From NCBI GenBank assembly GCA_012839145.1, contig DUNY01000342.1, forward strand, positions 1-17,321: a stretch of DNA of 17,321 nucleotides, read 5' to 3'. A program made the translations under genes and the position numbers. How positions within the stretch are numbered: position 1 is the first letter of the stretch; each line of letters begins with the position of its first letter. The notes beneath the pieces are model-generated. The model had not been told where the DNA came from, did no database searches, and saw nothing but the letters and a program-made list of their open reading frames with translations. This DNA is from Thermoanaerobacterales bacterium. GTDB lineage: Bacteria > Bacillota > Thermosediminibacteria > Thermosediminibacterales > Tepidanaerobacteraceae. This document shows, piece after piece, positions 988 to 12,547 of the stretch.

Positions 988-1540
988 TTAAAGTTTAATT
1001 GTAGTCTCAACAGCGGAATAAAGTGCCTCGCGAAGGCGGGAAGGTTTTGATGCATCACCGATAACGGTGTATTTGATTCCTTCTTTGTCTAAAGGTTTCT
1101 TTTAGCGGGGTATACGACTGCATACCTGCTGCCATGACGATGGTGTCAAATTTCTGGCTTTTATTCTCAACACCGTCTTTCTGGTAAGTTATGACACCTT
1201 CATCAATTGAAGATACTTTAGCCGAAGTGATTACTTTCACTTCCTTCTACTTTAAACGTTTTATCCTGTTAATCTTGATTGCTACCCACATGTCAGTAGC
1301 GATCTTATCCAACATCTCAAAAATGGTAATATTTTTACCGTATTCTGCCAGGAAGTCTACGACTTCACATCCTACCATTCCGCCGCCTATGACAGCTACA
1401 TTACTGCCAACCCATTTTTCACTTGACAAAAGGTCTACAGCAGTTATAGCAGTGTTATTATCTTTAACCTCAATATTAGGAATAAAAGGCAATGAGCCTG
1501 TGGCGAGTATAACTTGGTCAGGTTTATTTACCTTTATCAC
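988..1540 (-). pseudogene. Decayed enoate reductase-type oxidoreductase, C-terminal remnant
   Basis: Read on the minus strand, this is a recognisable but broken NAD(P)/FAD-binding half of an enoate reductase-like protein. It has an ILATGS segment, then the Rossmann motif GGGMVGCE with DFLAEYGKNITIFEML, closely parallel to the intact protein at 1-630. An in-frame TAG (1247-1249) interrupts the frame after KRLK, and the same frame continues as KEVKVITSAKV. A second lesion near 1094-1098 shifts the frame by one base. After it, another frame continues as KEGIKYTVIGDASKPSRLRE and stops at TAA (988-990), matching the expected GDA...A C-terminal region. The N-terminal FMN barrel is missing altogether. 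At least one nonsense change, one frameshift and one large deletion make a functional product very unlikely. Confidence 0.82.
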
Positions 1541-3975: not shown

Positions 3976-5385
3976 TTATATTTTCAATTCACCTATAACA
4001 TTTCCGCTACAGTCAATTACATGGGTGGCACATGACAGACAAGGGTCAAAGGAACGAACTATTCGGCCAAGAACGGCAAAGAGCATATTCGGCTTCGGTA
4101 TTACAGTTCCTATCAATGCATCTTCCGCAGGACCCAACTGACCTGAATCATCCTTAGGAGAAAAATTCCACATGGTGGGAGTAATAATATTATATTTTTC
4201 TATTTGTTCATTTTCGATTTGAGTTCTGTGCAGAAGTGGGCCTTTCATTGCATCGGTGATTGCTGCCGCTTCCGTTACAACCGGCTCTGTTTTCTGATTT
4301 ATAGGTGCAGGTCCGGGCTTTAGTTTATAGAGCCATTCTTCCATCAATTGAGAAATGTAAAAGGCCTCAAGAGACCGAGCATAGATACGGTCCATGGTAG
4401 ATGTTCCCCCTCGATAACGACCTAATAATATCATCCTTGCCAAAGGGCCTCCTTGAAAAGATTTACCGTCATATTTTACCGACTTTACCCAGGTATAAGC
4501 TCCGGGCTTATAGGGATTCGGTTTTATTTGTTCTTCATATGCATTTCCATCGTCCCCTTTGACAAACCAGGAATGGCTTATATCTTCGCTTATAAGCTCT
4601 AATTTTGGTCCTAATAAATCTCCATCCTCCAATACACCTGCAGGCCATAAATTATTTTGATTCTTTAACCCGAATTTAAATAAACCGAAGGAGAGCAATC
4701 GCCCAGGTGTGACACCGATATTATAATAATCATTGTAAGTGCGAGAGATAAGTTGAGTATCGGGAATCATTCGGCTTATTATAAATTCTTTTATGCTTTG
4801 AATCAAAGCAAGGGCTTGATTGACATTGTCGGAAGTCACGGGCACAGAAACCCCTCCGTGAACAAAGCTGTGCTGGTGGGGAGCTTTGCCCCCAAAAAGG
4901 CTTAGAATCTGATGGCTTTCTTGGGAAGCCTTAATTGAATCGAAATAATGCCTCACAAGAGCTTCATTATCTCTTTCGTTCAGCCTGGCGTCTGCCAGAT
5001 TTTGTCCAAGGAATGGCGGTCTTTCAGGCATTTTGACAAAGTCAGGGATACTGAAAAGATAGAAATGACGAATGTGATTTTGTAGAAAATCAGCACCCAG
5101 CATAATATTTCTCAAGTATTGGGCATTTTCATTTATATCATTGTCATATATGGCGTCCACCAGATAACCAGCCACGGCACCATGTGCCAGAGAACATATA
5201 CCGCATACTCGTTGGGTCAAATAGACCGCATCTGTGATATTTCTGTTTCGCATTATCCATTCAAAACCACGGAACATTGTGCTGCTGACGTTAGCATCGA
5301 CAACACGGTTTCTGTCAAGAAATACTTCAATGGATAATAACCCGCTGAGACGCGTTACAGGACTGAATATTATTCGCTTTTGCAT
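3976..5385 (-). CDS. [NiFe] hydrogenase-like large subunit with altered active-site shell
   Basis: A 469-residue group 1-like [NiFe] hydrogenase large subunit. The L1 motif RVCGICSLAH gives Cys61 and Cys64, and the L2 motif DPCLSCATH gives Cys449 and Cys452, so all four Ni-Fe ligands are present. A 14-residue tail after His455 is the usual peptide removed by the maturation protease. Compared by eye with E. coli HyaB, several second-shell residues differ. The RIEGH motif reads RLSGL, so the gate Glu (E28) is Ser14. HDH reads QNH, so D118 is Asn103. EAPRG reads DAMKG, so P508 and R509 are Met380 and Lys381. D574 is kept as Asp447. The ATG at 5385 has GGAGG 7 bases upstream. The gene lies 75 bases after the small-subunit gene on the same strand. 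It should bind H2 or another small substrate at Ni-Fe, but normal turnover is doubtful. Confidence 0.93.
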   Translation of the reverse strand: MQKRIIFSPVTRLSGLLSIEVFLDRNRVVDANVSSTMFRGFEWIMRNRNITDAVYLTQRVCGICSLAHGAVAGYLVDAIYDNDINENAQYLRNIMLGADFLQNHIRHFYLFSIPDFVKMPERPPFLGQNLADARLNERDNEALVRHYFDSIKASQESHQILSLFGGKAPHQHSFVHGGVSVPVTSDNVNQALALIQSIKEFIISRMIPDTQLISRTYNDYYNIGVTPGRLLSFGLFKFGLKNQNNLWPAGVLEDGDLLGPKLELISEDISHSWFVKGDDGNAYEEQIKPNPYKPGAYTWVKSVKYDGKSFQGGPLARMILLGRYRGGTSTMDRIYARSLEAFYISQLMEEWLYKLKPGPAPINQKTEPVVTEAAAITDAMKGPLLHRTQIENEQIEKYNIITPTMWNFSPKDDSGQLGPAEDALIGTVIPKPNMLFAVLGRIVRSFDPCLSCATHVIDCSGNVIGELKI

Positions 5386-5460: not shown

Positions 5461-6384
5461 TTATTCTTGTGGGCTCTTTTCAGGCATGGGTGTAAAAAAG
5501 GGCGTCGACCCGTCCGGAAAATCAGCATTTGTGCATCCTATGCAGGGTGTATTAGCTTTGACAGGCCAGTTTACATGATTTACCCAGAGCCTGTAGGGAC
5601 AGTCTGCACCGGTCCGTGGTCCCATACACCCAAGTGAAAACATACACTCTATATCCCCTAACTTAAGAGCGAATTGATTTCTATCGAAATAGGAACGGCG
5701 CTGGCAGTGTCTATGTATTGTAAAACCATAGAATAACTTTGGCCGTCCCAATTCATCCAAATCAGGCATTCCGTACAAGATTAAATGAGCAAGGGTGCCT
5801 ACGAACCAATCAGGGTTTACCGGACAGCCACTGACATTTACCACCTGCCTCTTTAAAACATCTTTGACTCCCATGCTGCCTGTTAAATTAGGCCGGGCTC
5901 CCGAGGGACCGCCAAAGCTGGCACAGGTGCCTATGGCCACAACATATTTGGCAAGCCCACCCAGCCATGTAACGACTTTTAAAGCTGTTAAAGGTTGTTG
6001 TTCGGTAACAGCTATGACATTGTAAAGGCCTTGGTCTTTGATGGGAATCGCTCCCTCCACCACCAATGTAAACTTACCGGCATAGTATTTTGCAGTGTTG
6101 TTCAAAATGTCCAAGGCATCCTTACCCTGTGCTGCCATAAAAGTATTGCTGTAAAGGAGATCTATCATTTCGGTAAACACCCGGTCAAGGTAAGGATAAG
6201 TGGTGTTCATAAAAGATATATTATTGTCACCGCTATCATTTGTTTCTAACCAGATGACAGGTAGCTTTTCCTTTTTATAATCTGAATAATATTGCATTAC
6301 CAATTCTATTGCTTCCTTTGAAATGACATTGTCTTTATGCAATGACAAATTCTGAAAGTACTTGACAAAATCATCCTTGTTCAT
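5461..6384 (-). CDS. [NiFe] hydrogenase-like small subunit lacking two proximal-cluster cysteines
   Basis: A 307-residue Fe-S electron-transfer subunit. The ATG at 6382-6384 is preferred over TTG 6402 because GGTGGGGG lies just upstream of it. Ligands for the distal cluster (His224, Cys227, Cys247, Cys253) and the medial cluster (Cys262, Cys281, Cys284) are all present with family spacing. Proximal ligands Cys154 (GTCASFGG) and Cys187 (SGCP) are kept. The usual CxxC after the VIWL strand is absent: residues 50-54 read DSGDN, and no Cys occurs before residue 154. Ungapped alignment to D. vulgaris HynB puts Ser51 and Asn54 at the ligand positions, with Asp50 and Asp53 beside them. There is no Tat signal (no RRxF) and no C-terminal anchor, so it should be cytoplasmic. 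It is the first gene of the minus-strand pair and faces the maturation operon across 226 bases. Confidence 0.92.
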   Translation of the reverse strand: MNKDDFVKYFQNLSLHKDNVISKEAIELVMQYYSDYKKEKLPVIWLETNDSGDNNISFMNTTYPYLDRVFTEMIDLLYSNTFMAAQGKDALDILNNTAKYYAGKFTLVVEGAIPIKDQGLYNVIAVTEQQPLTALKVVTWLGGLAKYVVAIGTCASFGGPSGARPNLTGSMGVKDVLKRQVVNVSGCPVNPDWFVGTLAHLILYGMPDLDELGRPKLFYGFTIHRHCQRRSYFDRNQFALKLGDIECMFSLGCMGPRTGADCPYRLWVNHVNWPVKANTPCIGCTNADFPDGSTPFFTPMPEKSPQE

Positions 6385-6610: not shown

Positions 6611-7072
6611 ATGGATTATTTTTGCAGGATCGTGGAACAACTAAGAAGAGCCCTGCTTGACGAGCGGACAACTGCGGCTTTTTATGCAATACTGAGAGAC
6701 ATGTCTACAACTTTTGACGGTGTTGATGCATTTGCCGAAGCCCGAAAAGATGAACAGGACCACGCCCGTGAGATAACAGCACTCCTAGAGCGACTTACAG
6801 GACAACGACCGCCGGAAGCCGATATACCGGTACAACCTCCGATGGTGAGGGATTATTGTCAGGGGATTATGGAAGCAATAAGGGGCGAAAGAGAAGCGGC
6901 GGTTGAATATCAGTCTATAATAAATATTTCGCCGTATGAAGATGTAAACATCGCCTTGAGTGAAATTCGTGGTGATGAGGAGGTACATCTGGCAAAATTC
7001 CAAGCTTTATACCGAACTGTCTGTGAAAAAGGATTTTTCGCTGCAAATACCGGTGACAACCAAACTGATTAA
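6611..7072 (+). CDS. Rubrerythrin/ferritin-like diiron protein
   Basis: A 153-residue four-helix-bundle protein of the ferritin-like superfamily, without the rubredoxin tail of classical rubrerythrin. Candidate diiron ligands are spaced as in the family: Glu18 in helix 1, Glu48-x-x-His51 in helix 2, Glu93/Glu95 in helix 3, and Glu123-x-x-His126 in helix 4. Relatives reduce peroxide or oxidise iron. The ATG follows AAAGGAGG at a good distance. It is the first gene of the long operon, only 21 bases before the hydrogenase endopeptidase gene. This suggests a job tied to the hydrogenase-like enzyme, such as oxygen or peroxide protection or iron handling during cofactor assembly. That link is inferred from position only. 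Confidence 0.83.
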   Translation: MDYFCRIVEQLRRALLDERTTAAFYAILRDMSTTFDGVDAFAEARKDEQDHAREITALLERLTGQRPPEADIPVQPPMVRDYCQGIMEAIRGEREAAVEYQSIINISPYEDVNIALSEIRGDEEVHLAKFQALYRTVCEKGFFAANTGDNQTD

Positions 7073-7093: not shown

Positions 7094-7603
7094 TTGGACA
7101 AAATACTCATAATAGGTTTGGGGAATGTATTAATGTCCGACGATAGTCTTGGAGTCGTTGCCGTAAAAGAATTAGAGAAGAGGAATAAAGAGTATGGTAT
7201 TAATTTTTTAGATGTAGGCACATCAGTTTTAAATTATATTATTGATATTGGGAGAGCAGAAAACTTAATTGCAATAGATGCTATAACAGCCGGCCATCCT
7301 CCGGGGACAATTTATTACATTGACAATCCCGACATGATAAAGGATATGGAGTTACTTTCTGATAGCCACGGATGCAGCCTCCCGGAGGCTGTGGCCCTTT
7401 CAAGAGAATTAACGGGTTTACCGGCCAAAGTCATCATATACGGTATAGAACCTTATACCTGTGAAGTGGGTTTTTGCATTTCACAGGAGGTTAAGGAATC
7501 CCTTCAAAAACTTATAACGATGGTCCAACGGGAAATACGGTCTCTAATGGCATTAGAGCAGTATCAAACTGGGAGTGACCCTCCTTGCATGAATTGTCCA
7601 TAG
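7094..7603 (+). CDS. Hydrogenase maturation endopeptidase (HyaD/HybD/HycI family)
   Basis: This nickel-dependent protease trims the C-terminal tail of the large subunit after nickel is inserted. The 169-residue protein has the motif GLGNVLMSDD. Its candidate nickel ligands Asp17, Asp62 (IAIDAIT) and His92 (SDSHG) match the E16, D62 and H93 of E. coli HybD. The start is a TTG at 7094-7096, read as MDKILIIGLGN. The 3' end overlaps hypA by 19 bases. The natural substrate is probably the large subunit encoded at 3976-5385, which retains a cleavable tail after His455. The residues after about 160 (DPPCMNCP) are an overlap-encoded extension. Confidence 0.92.
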   Translation: MDKILIIGLGNVLMSDDSLGVVAVKELEKRNKEYGINFLDVGTSVLNYIIDIGRAENLIAIDAITAGHPPGTIYYIDNPDMIKDMELLSDSHGCSLPEAVALSRELTGLPAKVIIYGIEPYTCEVGFCISQEVKESLQKLITMVQREIRSLMALEQYQTGSDPPCMNCP

Positions 7604-7926
7604 CGGCAAATATCTTGGACATTGTTCTTAATGAGATATCATCAGGAAATTATAAAAGAATAACAGGGTTGGACATTATTATCGGCGATCTTTCAGGTGT
7701 CGTCGGCGATAATGTTAAATATTATTTTGAAATGCTAAGTCGGGATACCCCGGCATGGGATGCGACTATGACATTTGAATACAAAAAAAGTAAATTCCGA
7801 TGTAACAGCTGTGAGAAAATCTATGAAAGGGATAGCTTCTCCATATTATGTCCCTATTGTAATAGTGGGGGAACCGTGGTGGAAAGCTATACATCCCTTT
7901 ATATTGAGAGCATAGAGGTGGAATAG
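7585..7926 (+). CDS. hypA: Hydrogenase nickel-insertion protein HypA
   Basis: HypA binds nickel and hands it, with HypB, to the large-subunit precursor. The TTG at 7585 gives the obligatory N-terminus MHE, whose His2 binds nickel. The zinc site is made by Cys73, Cys76, Cys89 and Cys92 (CNSC and CPYC). The length of 113 residues is typical. It overlaps the protease gene by 19 bases and its TAG overlaps the GTG of hypB by one base, which points to translational coupling. Confidence 0.95.
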   Translation: MHELSIAANILDIVLNEISSGNYKRITGLDIIIGDLSGVVGDNVKYYFEMLSRDTPAWDATMTFEYKKSKFRCNSCEKIYERDSFSILCPYCNSGGTVVESYTSLYIESIEVE

Positions 7927-8576
7927 TGGAAATAAAAATCGTGAAAGACGTTCTTGAAGCCAACAATTATATTGCCAAAACGATAAATGAAGACCTTACT
8001 AAAAGAAATATAATGATGATAAATATCATTGGTTCTCCGGGAGCCGGAAAAACTAGTTTTATTTTAAAAACCATTGAACATCTTGAAGTAAAATGTGCGG
8101 TTATCGAGGGTGATATAACTTCTGATATTGATTCCAGAAAAGTTGCCGCATATGGTATTCCCGTGGTTCAAATAAATACCGGTGGGAGCTGTCACTTAAA
8201 TGCCAATATGATTGATGCCGCTCTAAAAGTAATCCCTTTAGAAAATGCAATAATTTTTGTTGAAAATGTTGGGAATTTGGTTTGTCCGGCTTCTTTTGAC
8301 ATCGGAGAGGACTTCAAGGTAGCCTTGAGCAGTGTTACCGAGGGTGATGATAAGCCGTATAAATATCCTGCTATATTTAAAAAAGCCATGGTGACTGTTT
8401 TAAATAAGATAGACTTAGTAAGGTATGTGGATTTTGACAGAGATTACTTCTATAAAGGATTAAAAACCTTAAATCCAAACGGTATTACCTTCGAGGTATC
8501 TTCTGTCCTGGGAGATGGAATAAGGGAGTGGAGTGAGTGGCTGGAGAACCAGTTAATGCAAAAGTACAAAAAATAG
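7926..8576 (+). CDS. hypB: Hydrogenase nickel-incorporation GTPase HypB
   Basis: A SIMIBI-class GTPase that drives nickel delivery together with HypA. It has the P-loop GSPGAGKT (residues 36-43), the metal site Cys89-His90 in TGGSCHLNAN, Cys120 in VGNLVCPASFD, and the guanine motif NKID (160-163). It lacks the N-terminal His-rich stretch and the CxxGC metal site found in some enterobacterial forms, so it is the compact 216-residue type. It starts with GTG overlapping the hypA stop. Its last 40 bases overlap the start of hypF. Confidence 0.95.
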   Translation: MEIKIVKDVLEANNYIAKTINEDLTKRNIMMINIIGSPGAGKTSFILKTIEHLEVKCAVIEGDITSDIDSRKVAAYGIPVVQINTGGSCHLNANMIDAALKVIPLENAIIFVENVGNLVCPASFDIGEDFKVALSSVTEGDDKPYKYPAIFKKAMVTVLNKIDLVRYVDFDRDYFYKGLKTLNPNGITFEVSSVLGDGIREWSEWLENQLMQKYKK

Positions 8577-10309
8577 ACAATGTTGATGGGAGATTAACGG
8601 TTAATTTTAAAAGCCGTGATACTATACTACATAAAAATGAGGCCGTTGAAAAAGCAGTAGAAATGTTAAACGATGGGAAAATTATTGCCATTAAAAGCAT
8701 GGGCGGCTATCATTTGGCAGTGGATGCCCGAAGGGAAGATGCTGTGTCAAGACTCAGGGAGAAAAAGCATAGATATGGAAAACCACTGGCTGTGATGATG
8801 CAAAATGTGGATGAAGTGGAAAAATACTGTTTAGTGAACGATTTCGAAAAAGACATTCTGGAAAGTCATCGTGCACCAATAGTCCTTTTAAAGAAGAAGG
8901 CCGGTGGCGATCCATTAGCTTTCAGCCTGACAACGGGTCTGAATACGGTGGGAGTAATGTTGCCATATACACCTATACATCACATATTAATGAACAAAGT
9001 CGATTTTCCTTTGGTCATGACCAGTGGTAACATAAGTGATGAGCCCATATGCAGGGATGAACGTGAAGCTCAATCCCGATTAAAGAATGTGGCTGATGGA
9101 TTTTTACATCACAACCGACCTATTGTAAACCGTATTGATGATTCTGTGTGTTTTTATACAGCTGGTGGGATGAGAATAGTAAGAAGAGCCCGGGGATTTG
9201 CACAGGAACCTATAATAGTCGAAAGGGGTACAACACATATTCTTGCCTGTGGAGCCTTTTACAAAAACACTTTCTGTCTGATGGAAGGTCAGCACGCTTT
9301 TGTCAGCCACCACATCGGTGATTTGGACAATTTGTTGACTTTTAGGTACTACAAGGAGGAAATAAAAAAACATAAAAAGCTTTTCAAAGTAAACCCCAAT
9401 TACGTGGTAAAGGATCTTCATCCCTTATACCCTTCAAGTCTGTACGCCGATGAGCAGGGTGTGCCAATTCTAGCCGTGCAGCATCATCATGCTCACACAG
9501 CTTCGGTTATGGCAGAGTACGATTTAGAGGAGACAGTTATAGGTATTGTTTATGACGGTACCGGATTAGGTAGTGATGGAAATGTGTGGGGGGCGGAATT
9601 TCTTCTTGCTGACTTAAAGGAATTTCAAAGGGTGGGGCATCTAAACTATGTCCCTCTTCCCGGTGGTGACAAAGCTGTTAAAAACCTCTTTCGGACAGCT
9701 CTGGGATTCATTTATCCGAATATGGAATGTTTTTCGGAATATACAGCTCGTTTAGACAGACTTCAAGTTGAAATCGTATTAAAACAAATAGAGAGGGAGA
9801 TTAATACACCTCTGGCTTCAAGTATGGGGCGACTTTTTGATGCCGTAGCTTCACTGATTAATCTGAGGGATTCAGTGGATTATGAAGGGCAAGCCGCTAT
9901 GGAGCTTGAGTCAATCATCTGTTTCTCGAAAGATTATTACAATTATGATATAAAAGAACAACCATCCGGTTTTTGTATTAAAGTCCATAAGCTTTTAACA
10001 GAATTGTATTATGACTACATTACCGGTGTTAATAAAGGCATTATTTCAGCCAAATTTCATAATACAGTCATAAAATTTACGGTGGACATGGCAAAGAAAA
10101 TAAGGGATGTTTATGGTGTGAATAAAACCGTGCTTTCGGGAGGGTGTTTTCAGAACCGATACCTCCTTGAAAGTATAAATGAAAAACTTCGAAGAGAAGG
10201 CTTTGAGACCTACATACCGAGCAAAATACCTGTAAATGACGGTGGTATTTCTCTGGGTCAGGCTGCAGTAGCAGCGGCATACTTTTCGGAAAAGGAAGGA
10301 AGAGGGTGA
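8537..10309 (+). CDS. hypF: HypF lacking acylphosphatase and zinc-finger domains
   Basis: HypF makes the carbamoyl group that becomes the CN ligands of the Ni-Fe site. This protein has 590 residues against about 750 in full-length forms. It opens almost directly with the YrdC-like domain: MGGYHL (55-60), KKHRYGKPLAVM (77-88), TSGNISDEP (162-170). This is followed by the Kae1-like carbamoyltransferase domain: QHHHAH (315-320), YDGTGLG (339-345), SMGRLFDA, and LSGGCFQN near the end. The N-terminal acylphosphatase domain (GxVQGVGFRP-type loop) and the paired CxxC zinc fingers are absent, and neither is encoded upstream, where hypB is intact. The GTG at 8537 overlaps hypB by 40 bases; a GGGAGTGGAG stretch serves as ribosome site. 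It may need an acylphosphatase from elsewhere, or a second HypF. I recall that a short HypF1 has been reported in Ralstonia eutropha. Confidence 0.92.
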   Translation: MAGEPVNAKVQKIDNVDGRLTVNFKSRDTILHKNEAVEKAVEMLNDGKIIAIKSMGGYHLAVDARREDAVSRLREKKHRYGKPLAVMMQNVDEVEKYCLVNDFEKDILESHRAPIVLLKKKAGGDPLAFSLTTGLNTVGVMLPYTPIHHILMNKVDFPLVMTSGNISDEPICRDEREAQSRLKNVADGFLHHNRPIVNRIDDSVCFYTAGGMRIVRRARGFAQEPIIVERGTTHILACGAFYKNTFCLMEGQHAFVSHHIGDLDNLLTFRYYKEEIKKHKKLFKVNPNYVVKDLHPLYPSSLYADEQGVPILAVQHHHAHTASVMAEYDLEETVIGIVYDGTGLGSDGNVWGAEFLLADLKEFQRVGHLNYVPLPGGDKAVKNLFRTALGFIYPNMECFSEYTARLDRLQVEIVLKQIEREINTPLASSMGRLFDAVASLINLRDSVDYEGQAAMELESIICFSKDYYNYDIKEQPSGFCIKVHKLLTELYYDYITGVNKGIISAKFHNTVIKFTVDMAKKIRDVYGVNKTVLSGGCFQNRYLLESINEKLRREGFETYIPSKIPVNDGGISLGQAAVAAAYFSEKEGRG

Positions 10310-10315
10310 AATCAA

Positions 10316-10528
10316 TTGTGCCTGGCTGTTCCCATGAAAGTCAAAAATATCAGATGGCCTATAGCAGAGGTTTCAGCCCAGGGTCTTATAAAAGATGTTG
10401 ATATACAGCTTGTACCAAAGGTTGATATAGGTGATTATGTCCTTGTTCACGCAGGGTTCGCCATACAAATTATGGATAAAGATCTGGCAAGGGAGAGTCT
10501 GGAAATATGGGAAGCCTTAGAATTCTAA
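10316..10528 (+). CDS. hypC: Hydrogenase assembly chaperone HypC
   Basis: HypC carries the Fe(CN)2CO group with HypD and escorts the large-subunit precursor. The TTG at 10316 yields the required N-terminus MCLAVP, with Cys2 as iron ligand, and the conserved His (His45 in VLVHAGFA) is present. At 70 residues it is at the short end of the family. It begins 6 bases after the hypF stop and overlaps hypD by 22 bases. Confidence 0.95.
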   Translation: MCLAVPMKVKNIRWPIAEVSAQGLIKDVDIQLVPKVDIGDYVLVHAGFAIQIMDKDLARESLEIWEALEF

Positions 10529-11544
10529 CTAAAGAAAAAGAAATTAAGATAATGGAAGTATGTGGAACTCATTCAGAAGTAATTTCAAAGTTTGCCATAA
10601 GACAACTTTATAAAGAAAGAGTAAAGCTCATATCAGGACCTGGTTGCCCGGTTTGTGTCATACCTCCTGAAGATATTGACCTAGTTGTTGAATATGCTAA
10701 AAACGGCTTTAGAGTTATAACCTTCGGGGATTTGGTAAGAGTTCCGGGAACTACATCCAGCCTGCTCATTGAGAGAGCACGCGGAAAAAGTGTTGAATCA
10801 GTATATTCGCCCTTGGATGCCCTTGTGGCAGCAAAAGAAAGTCCTTCAAAACAAGTGGTTTTTATTGCAGTGGGCTTTGAAACTACGGCACCTTTGGTTG
10901 CTCTGACAATTATGAAAGCCAAGCAGGATGGTATAAAAAACTTTAGTGTAATATGTTTGCTTAGGACAATGCCTAATATCTTAAGAAGTCTCTTTAAAAA
11001 CAACGTTCTGATTAATGGATTGCTGCTGCCTGGGCATGTTTGCACTATTACGGGCTCAAAGCCTTTCGAGTTTATTGCAGATGAATTGGGAATAACCGGA
11101 GTCATTTCCGGTTTTAACCTTGAAGATGTGGTGCAAAGTATCGAAACATTAATTAAGAGTATACATAAGCCCTCGATACATATCCAATATAAAAGGGCTG
11201 TTACCATTGACGGAAATGGGGTTGCCCAAAAAGTCATACAAAAAGTTTTTGAACCCTGTGACGTTTCCTGGAGGGGTTTTGATCTTGTTAAAGATTCCGG
11301 ACTTGCTATAAAACAAGAATGGAGTTTTTTTGATGCCCTAAAGCGGTGGGGTATAGAGATTAAATGTAAACAAAATGAAGAAATCCTTGAGAATATTTGC
11401 TGTTGCGGGGACATAATGCAGGGGCTTTTTACACCTATAGAATGCCCGTTATTTAAAATATCCTGTAAACCTGAAAGCCCAAAAGGGCCCTGTATGGTTT
11501 CTGCCGAAGGGTCCTGTGCCATCTACTATAAATACGGAGGGTAA
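10507..11544 (+). CDS. hypD: Hydrogenase Fe(CN)2CO assembly protein HypD
   Basis: HypD is the Fe-S scaffold on which the cyanide and CO groups are added to iron. Conserved motifs are all visible: CGTH (Cys19), GPGCPVC (Cys47 and Cys50), GFETTAP, PGHV, and the C-terminal 4Fe-4S region CCCGDIMQG...CPLF...C...GPCMVSAEG. The 345-residue length is slightly short because the N-terminal lead before CGTH is only 18 residues. The ATG at 10507 has GGGAGAG upstream inside hypC. It is followed after 4 bases by hypE. Confidence 0.95.
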   Translation: MGSLRILTKEKEIKIMEVCGTHSEVISKFAIRQLYKERVKLISGPGCPVCVIPPEDIDLVVEYAKNGFRVITFGDLVRVPGTTSSLLIERARGKSVESVYSPLDALVAAKESPSKQVVFIAVGFETTAPLVALTIMKAKQDGIKNFSVICLLRTMPNILRSLFKNNVLINGLLLPGHVCTITGSKPFEFIADELGITGVISGFNLEDVVQSIETLIKSIHKPSIHIQYKRAVTIDGNGVAQKVIQKVFEPCDVSWRGFDLVKDSGLAIKQEWSFFDALKRWGIEIKCKQNEEILENICCCGDIMQGLFTPIECPLFKISCKPESPKGPCMVSAEGSCAIYYKYGG

Positions 11545-11548
11545 AACT

Positions 11549-12547
11549 ATGAGCGTAGTTCAGATAGCCCATGGTGGAGGGGGAAAACTCACGGAAGATT
11601 TGATAAAAGAAGTTTTCGTAAAAACTTTTGATAATGAGATTATCAATGGAATGGAAGATTCCGCCGTAATAAATTTGGAATCTGTGAACCTTGCTTTCAC
11701 TACCGATAGCTACACTGTAAAACCCCTTTTTTTTCCAGGGGGTGACATCGGAAAGCTTGCGGTGTACGGGACTGTTAACGATCTTCTAATGAGAGGTGCA
11801 AGGCCATTATTCTTAAGTGCCTCTTTTATTATTGAGGAAGGTTTTGAAATAGAGGGGCTAAAAGCTGTAGCCACTTCAATGGCCGGTGCCTGTCAAGAGG
11901 CGAGAGTCAGTATTGTCACAGGGGATACTAAGGTGGTGGCAAAAGGCGAAGCCGATCAACTTTTTATAAATACTTCAGGGGTTGGATTGGTTCCCCCGGG
12001 TGTAGATGTGTCTATAAAAAAGGCCCGTCCGGGTGATAGTATAATTATTTCAGGCACTATAGGGGACCATGGGATGGCTATTTTATCAAGTCGAGAGAAT
12101 TTCACCTTTGACCCGCCGGTGGAGAGCGACTGTGCACCTCTTATGGAGATGGCAAATACCATTCTGGAGTATAGGGATTTCATAAGAGTAATGAGAGATC
12201 CAACTCGTGGTGGAGCTGCTGAGGTATTCTACAATATATCTGAAGCCGGTGGGGTAGGAATAGAAATCTATGAAGATCAGCTGCCGGTAAAGCCTCAGGT
12301 CATCTCAGCGTGTAATATGCTGGGTTTGGATTTTTATCAACTGGCCAATGAAGGCAAGCTTATTACCGTTGTAGAAAGCAGTGTTTCAAAAAAGGTCCTT
12401 GAATCAATAAAGGGATGCAAATATGGGCGTAATGCGGCCATAATAGGCACCGTCAATGATTCTGGATTGGTCACGGTCAAAACACGGCTTGGGACCTCAA
12501 GAATATTAAGCCGGCCCATAGGAGAACTAATACCCCGTATCTGTTAA
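11549..12547 (+). CDS. hypE: Hydrogenase maturation protein HypE (carbamoyl dehydratase)
   Basis: HypE accepts the carbamoyl group from HypF on its C-terminal cysteine and dehydrates it with ATP to a thiocyanate, which is passed to HypC-HypD. The 332-residue protein starts with MSVVQIAHGGGGK, has the PurM/ThiL-like motifs TDSYTVKPLFFPGGD and GDTKVV, and ends in PRIC, with the essential terminal Cys. I use the ATG at 11549 because GGAGGG lies 7 bases upstream; an in-frame upstream start at 11516 lies inside hypD. It is the last hyp gene and is followed by a probable terminator. Confidence 0.95.
   Translation: MSVVQIAHGGGGKLTEDLIKEVFVKTFDNEIINGMEDSAVINLESVNLAFTTDSYTVKPLFFPGGDIGKLAVYGTVNDLLMRGARPLFLSASFIIEEGFEIEGLKAVATSMAGACQEARVSIVTGDTKVVAKGEADQLFINTSGVGLVPPGVDVSIKKARPGDSIIISGTIGDHGMAILSSRENFTFDPPVESDCAPLMEMANTILEYRDFIRVMRDPTRGGAAEVFYNISEAGGVGIEIYEDQLPVKPQVISACNMLGLDFYQLANEGKLITVVESSVSKKVLESIKGCKYGRNAAIIGTVNDSGLVTVKTRLGTSRILSRPIGELIPRIC

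Follow-up and report, generated by a model that had tools for sequence, protein, structure and literature searches.

The window, by which we mean the whole 17,321-nucleotide stretch analysed here (contig DUNY01000342.1 of a Thermoanaerobacterales genome of 2.58 Mb in 493 contigs, 89% complete), raises the question of how a [NiFe] hydrogenase can keep every ligand of its metal site when the gate Glu and most of the canopy residues have been replaced. An earlier note, made from the letters alone, had described these replacements as concerted and took them to suggest a protein whose selected role is not rapid H2 cycling. That observation holds up and points to something larger than was stated. 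The part of it that was stressed most, the loss of the canopy Arg, is not a property of the family to which the enzyme belongs.

The large subunit and its locus

Both structural genes lie on the minus strand, with the small-subunit gene (5461..6384, 307 aa from its ATG, in an ORF that opens at TTG 6402) upstream of the large-subunit gene (3976..5385, 469 aa, ATG start). Matches of the two subunits to PF00374 (286.7 bits for the large subunit), PF01058 and PF14720 (both in the small subunit) exceed the cut-offs, and the NiFe(Se) large-subunit equivalog NF033181 of NCBIfam scores 397.7 bits, under its cut-off of 600. A divergent block on the plus strand begins with a ferritin-like ORF and continues with a hydrogenase maturation protease (7094..7603; PF01750, TIGR00072), a HypA-like protein (7585..7926; PF01155, under the TIGR00100 cut-off), HypB (7926..8576; TIGR00073), HypF (8537..10309), HypC (10316..10528; PF01455, TIGR00074), HypD (10507..11544; TIGR00075) and HypE (11516..12547; TIGR02124). 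The acylphosphatase and zinc-finger part is missing from this HypF, which matches positions 180-740 of the 741 in TIGR00143. A 95-aa frame on another contig of the genome (G000:C332) matches HypF positions 2-48 and is perhaps a separate acylphosphatase; a short HypF is also carried on C. necator pHG1. Two ORFs of similar size flank the hyp genes: that at 6611-7072 is rubrerythrin- or encapsulin-cargo-like, under cut-offs, and that at 12583-13122 matches no Pfam family. Partial frames of a pyridine nucleotide-disulphide oxidoreductase lie near the contig edge (46-630, plus strand) and, as a short remnant, at 1247-1540 (minus strand).

Residues of the large subunit were mapped onto E. coli HyaB in a MAFFT alignment that comprised 88 large subunits. 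All four Ni-Fe cysteines are present, as the note had read them: Cys61 (5203..5205, HyaB C76), Cys64 (5194..5196, C79), Cys449 (4039..4041, C576) and Cys452 (4030..4032, C579). The protein is thus not of the complex I NuoD-like kind, in which the Ni-Fe cysteines are lost. The alignment also reproduces the replacements, with Ser14 (5344..5346) at the site of the gate Glu E28, Asn103 (5077..5079) at D118, Met380 (4246..4248) at P508 and Lys381 (4243..4245) at R509; D574 is kept as Asp447 (4045..4047). All of these codons are on the minus strand, and the interval 4243-5346 assigned to them in the note runs exactly over the codons of residues 381 to 14. No Glu or Arg from a neighbouring segment occupies the gate or canopy sites, and so the replacements do not dissolve into a misalignment.

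Whether they belong to the protein or to its family was judged on the window protein together with the best 120 of 2401 matches (E<=0.001), a set of 121 large subunits, 59-99% identical. In this set each Cys of both CxxC pairs is found 121 times out of 121, as are Asn at position 103 and Met at position 380. Position 14 is Ser in 114, Glu in 3, Ala in 2 and gapped in 2. Position 381, however, is Arg in 119, Lys in the window alone and Cys in one. Since they are conserved across the 121 large subunits, the changes at the gate, D118 and P508 are family traits; the loss of the Arg is not. Concerted replacement around intact Ni-Fe ligands therefore stands for three of the four sites named in the note but fails for the canopy Arg. 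Three members (P0014, P0044 and P0060) combine a gate Glu with Asn103, Met380 and Arg381, so that Ser at the gate is not obligatory; they are either partial revertants or retained ancestors.

Lys381 itself very probably has no bearing on the family: it would be either an erroneous base or a rare allele that cripples the enzyme of a single strain. It is the only Lys among those 121 sequences, and the 99% identical protein P0004, which differs at 3 of 469 residues (A131T, E137K and K381R), has Arg. The Lys codon, AAA, is one G-to-A change from AGA, and the assembly is fragmented. Against this, the reading frame is intact and the residues around Lys381 are canonical for the family, and we consider a base error and a real change equally likely. 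The note was correct that R509K alone lowers turnover strongly in E. coli Hyd-1: about 1% of H2 oxidation is left in that enzyme, and 2-10% in the R479K variant of Hyd-2 (both reported within PMC10430524). By analogy, if Lys381 is real, the enzyme of the window strain is probably slow.

After His455, which aligns with HyaB H582, the large subunit has a 14-residue C-terminal extension (3979..4020, minus strand) that we would expect the maturation protease to remove. Nine of the 120 best-matching large subunits (P0076, P0099, P0100, P0105, P0106, P0109, P0114, P0117 and P0122) stop exactly at the last motif His, so that no cutting is needed. The large subunit at locus L004 is also of this type, and no protease gene was seen in its stretch.

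Gate residues across the Bacillota

A search with the window protein through 398 genomes of the phylum gave hits in 106 at an E-value of 1e-40 or lower. Subunits encoded in 80 fetched stretches were aligned together with the ones from L001-L005 and from E. coli, C. necator, Sulfobacillus, Mycobacterium, Alteromonas and Dehalobacter. The table of gates and proximal motifs has 87 rows; it leaves out L079 (also absent from the tree), L091 and L093 (no Ni ligands), L084 (gap at the gate), and L036, L070, L088 and L094_Dehre, in which the motif is missing. The gate is Glu in 21 rows and another residue in 66 (Ser 30, Asn 18, His 13, Gln 2, Leu 2 and Cys 1). The D118 site of these 66 is occupied by Asn in 63 and by Asp in 2, with a gap in 1, and the P508 site by Met in 48; the R509 site is Arg in 86 of all 87 scored rows. 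Non-Glu gates therefore extend through a large Bacillota group. The window genome itself holds a second hydrogenase, on contig C459, and this enzyme and its 120 best-listed homologues have Asn at the gate in 109 of 121 and keep the Arg in 121 of 121. In a quick tree the window family is one branch of 15 rows (SH-aLRT 99), enclosed in a soluble Ser-gate clade of 22 rows (SH-aLRT 98). Constraining all non-Glu-gate rows to a single clade was not rejected (p-AU 0.82); the constrained tree even outdid the unconstrained one.

The gate letter sorts with the type of enzyme in 68 of 68 loci. Neither a Tat motif nor, in the fetched stretches, some of which were short (4-9 kb), a cytochrome b was found at any of the 31 loci with a Ser gate (30) or a Cys gate (one). 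The window is among them: its small subunit has no Tat motif, and probes for cytochrome b found nothing in the window. A looser Tat pattern matches 2 of the 120 database small subunits of the family. At the loci with Asn, His, Gln or Leu at the gate, in contrast, the fetched stretch includes a cytochrome b gene in 37 of 37 cases, and a Tat-like motif is seen in 24 of 37, two of which 37 have a cut small subunit.

The cytochrome b-linked enzymes, such as those of Dehalobacter restrictus, Calderihabitans maritimus and Dethiobacter alkaliphilus, share with the window family the non-Glu gate, here Asn, His or Gln, and the Met at P508, and the Arg is kept in the group; they have Asn or Asp at D118 and CxxD or CxxN as the proximal motif. 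They differ in the adjoining cytochrome b gene, in keeping the first proximal Cys and in being only about 40-43% identical. Similar gate and canopy changes thus occur in enzymes with the build of ordinary uptake hydrogenases, which weakens the note's suggestion of a selected role apart from rapid H2 cycling. The soluble enzymes at L023-L026 are closer (46-48% identity). Like the window they have a Ser gate, Asn at D118, a Glu after the conserved Trp of the small subunit, and neither Tat signal nor cytochrome b; unlike it they have Pro at P508 and keep the first proximal Cys (ACSGDS).

Of the 14 other family loci, 8 carry hyp or protease genes; at the remaining 6 none turned up in the fetched stretch. 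An all-against-all comparison of ORFs from 18 loci and the window, used as a search for partners, recovered the hyp and protease genes. It also returned an ABC transporter (five family and two sister loci), an FmdE-like protein (four family loci) and a cytochrome b5-like protein (one family and three sister loci), all of them absent from the window. ORFs antisense to the structural genes, which recur among the loci as well, were set aside.

Two further kinds of relative came to light. The 452-aa large-subunit-like proteins of L091 (5043-6398) and L093 (5020-6375) end at 'RSF' just before the DPCxxC motif and have lost the first CxxC too (S/D), and they adjoin a small subunit with CxxC, a cytochrome b, hypA and hypB; judged by these residues, the type is a hydrogenase fold without metal ligands. 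Other matches of about 450 aa occur in G036, G120, G206, G230, G277 and G300. Several relatives, L084 and L085 among them, have an in-frame TGA and are probably selenocysteine (NiFeSe) enzymes; the L085 frame stops directly after the DP of the last motif.

The small subunit and the proximal cluster

The note had overlooked that the replacements in the large subunit, borne out for the gate, D118 and P508, are matched by a change in the small subunit. The fourth Cys of the proximal cluster is absent from 66 of 66 non-Glu-gate rows, where the motif is CxxD in 31, CxxN in 19, CxxE in 1 and of the window-family type in 15. Among the 21 Glu-gate rows it is CxxC in 17 and CxxN in 4, so that some enzymes with a Glu gate have lost the fourth Cys too. 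In the window family both Cys of the motif are gone at 14 of 15 loci, which read DSGDN, and the remaining locus reads NCSGDN. The window has DSGDN at residues 56-60 (6223..6237, minus strand) in place of the CxxC. Across 121 small subunits D56, S57, G58, D59 and N60 are each found in 119 or 120, with one row gapped, and the first proximal Cys is missing in 119 of the 120 that have a residue at position 56. The only Cys among the proximal ligands of the window are Cys160 (5923..5925) and Cys193 (5824..5826), both on the minus strand and both retained in 121 of 121, rather than the four of a four-Cys [4Fe-4S] cluster. The Cys ligands of the medial and distal clusters are present in all 121 small subunits, as is the medial Pro, and the distal His is present in the window. 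A Cys near the N-terminus of the small subunit (position 16 of P0003), found in 100 of 121, is Phe in the window.

A new acidic residue accompanies the change. A Glu lies two residues past a conserved Trp in 61 of 66 non-Glu-gate rows and in 0 of 21 Glu-gate rows, counted over the rows that have a residue there, which leaves aside L036 and L070 (non-Glu gate) and L088 (Glu gate). Most Glu-gate enzymes have Gln or His at this position; in the window it is Glu53 (6244..6246, minus strand).

We are unsure of the exact register of the motif. Asp56-Ser-Gly-Asp59 fits the pattern C-[ST]-G-[CDN] when shifted by one residue, whereas in an alignment without gaps the two Cys fall opposite Ser57 and Asn60. 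The one family locus with a Cys at position 56 (L016/P0209, NCSGDN) suggests that Asp56 stands where the first Cys would be. The predicted structure of the small subunit (mean pLDDT 68.4) is weak at the motif, with DSGD (residues 50-53 of the 307-aa form) below 50, and does not settle the register.

The best sequence match of the window enzyme is 5jsu_B, a group 1 periplasmic [NiFeSe]/[NiFe] hydrogenase, and the best fold match of the predicted large subunit is 4kn9_L, with a TM score of 0.86 at 32% identity; the prediction confirms the fold only. The enzyme shares the Ni-Fe cysteines and the medial and distal ligands with the group 1 periplasmic enzymes (D. vulgaris Hildenborough, Dm. baculatum and D. 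fructosovorans). Unlike them, it lacks the gate Glu, the CxxC proximal motif and the Tat signal, and it has Asn at HyaB position 118. The family has a medial Pro where the NiFeSe enzymes have Cys in the NF and PDB alignments. The Actinobacterial-type (group 1h) hydrogenases, HofKG, have a 3Cys/1Asp proximal cluster. The window family resembles them in having a non-Cys residue at the fourth proximal position, and the M. intracellulare relative reads CSGN there. That relative has a gate Glu, however, and group 1h keeps the first proximal Cys, with Asp or Asn as the fourth residue, while the window family is also without the first.

Much of the association between gate and motif may be explained by common descent, since the events on the tree are few: two changes of the gate and three of the motif, with one independent pair on the starred branches. 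This bears on the reading of an ordinary hydrogenase in which the second shell drifted neutrally, the proximal motif drifted by common descent and nothing was rerouted. The scarcity of independent events, the variety of gate letters (S, N, H, Q, L and C) and the gate Glu of three family members are all in its favour. Neutral drift sits poorly, however, with Asn103 and Met380, which are invariant in the window and its best 120 of 2401 matches, with the near-invariant D56-S-G-D-N, and with a gate letter that tracks the soluble or cytochrome b-linked type throughout. We think this reading unlikely.

How the enzyme may handle hydrogen

The non-canonical set and the metal ligands are conserved together in 121 large and 121 small subunits, which argues for a maintained enzyme and against decay. 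We consider it on balance probable, from residue conservation and gene content, that the window encodes a two-subunit cytosolic Bacillota [NiFe] hydrogenase, able to build the Ni-Fe site and to activate H2, with a remodelled relay. The Ni-Fe, medial and distal ligands are retained, and hyp genes adjoin the structural genes. The gate Glu has given way to Ser, or rarely Cys, in the soluble forms and to Asn, His, Gln or Leu in the cytochrome b-linked ones, and the small subunit has gained a Glu near the proximal motif and lost the fourth Cys, and in the window family the first as well. Because the medial and distal ligands are invariant, electrons should still pass through a proximal cluster, whose ligands are probably two Cys and two Asp (Asp56 and Asp59). 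Protons would leave along the canopy Arg, Asn103/Asp447 and His104, or else via small-subunit carboxylates, rather than by a gate Glu, and the electrons would pass to a soluble carrier, for example ferredoxin, since no partner subunit is encoded.

Published mutants bear on both parts of this proposal. In T. roseopersicina HynL the E14Q enzyme keeps about 50% of its activity, R487I and D103L are dead and H104F has about 6%, and a D. fructosovorans enzyme with Gln at the gate is cited as inactive, according to passages of PMC3325256. In Hyd-1 the gate Glu is described in PMC10430524 as not needed for the initial deprotonation. The window family keeps the Arg, His104 and Asp447 and has Asn in place of Asp103; as the gate Glu is dispensable in some enzymes, we favour activation of H2 on the Arg side, perhaps with the new small-subunit carboxylates. 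The inactive D. fructosovorans Gln enzyme counts against this reading, and so by analogy does the dead D103L enzyme, although Asn is a milder change than Leu. At the proximal cluster, A. macleodii hydrogenase tolerates Asp singly at either position (C78D and C81D), and among its multiply substituted enzymes, which were distal and medial pairs only, none is given as active in PMC4070099. We also put forward, tentatively and as possible rather than probable, that the proton gate has moved to the small subunit, where the carboxylates of a 2Asp/2Cys proximal cluster and Glu53 would take over from Glu28 and carry the proton and the electron together, with the Arg as the primary base.

We came across no activity measurement for members of the family and know of none for H2, which weighs against the proposal above and leaves room for a Ni-Fe enzyme of a non-H2 reaction. 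In such an enzyme the remade second shell and proximal cluster would be suited to some other small substrate, or to a two-electron reduction carried out in the cytosol. The joint change of the gate Glu, D118, P508 and two proximal Cys around metal ligands that stayed would suit such an enzyme. So would the genomes in which it sits beside other hydrogenases: among nine family genomes searched it is the sole PF00374 match (E<=0.001) in four (G284, G394, G067 and G335), all of which also carry [FeFe] hydrogenases, and it is therefore not their only H2 enzyme. That it is the sole PF00374 protein of four genomes we also count in favour of the H2-activating reading. We regard a non-H2 reaction as quite improbable, because the canopy Arg persists in 119 of 121 (window and best 120 of 2401), related cytochrome b-linked enzymes with like changes resemble uptake hydrogenases, and most loci lack a conserved substrate-specific neighbour.

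D. restrictus has one Asn-gate and two Glu-gate enzymes. D. alkaliphilus, in which H2 consumption was measured at the level of the organism (PMC10376724), has a Gln-gate cytochrome b-linked NiFe enzyme and one group-3-like enzyme. A. arabaticum (G335), which uses H2 with CO2 or CO, carries the window-family enzyme as its sole PF00374 match alongside three [FeFe] hydrogenase matches. These cases are compatible with H2 chemistry, short of proof.

Sensing, one of the functions the note had proposed, fares worse. A sensor or tight binder of H2 or CO would turn over slowly and use the trapped ligand to signal H2 to a kinase or partner. The enzyme is indeed soluble and without a Tat signal, HoxJ-like kinases lie near 3 of the 14 other family loci (L001, L003 and L020), and R-to-K enzymes hold a diatomic ligand very tightly (PMC10430524). 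But the window itself has no HoxJ-like kinase, the known sensor HoxC of C. necator retains the Glu, Asp and Arg, and conservation of the medial and distal clusters is complete. We consider a sensor highly improbable. Taken together, the data tend to favour a different route for H2 chemistry over a new reaction.

Two Cys plus two ligands of another kind at the proximal cluster would, to our knowledge, be new for hydrogenases. Table 1 of the survey in PMC4070099 has only single replacements at the proximal cluster, and our search of the open-access literature, with subscription papers outside its reach, found no description of the combination of gate and proximal motif. So far, the roles of the gate Glu and the canopy Arg as acceptor of the proton from H2 have been argued mainly from point mutants. 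A natural group that has lost the gate Glu but retains the Arg, whose proximal cluster is rebuilt and whose small subunit has gained a Glu, would allow the question to be put to enzymes tuned by evolution.
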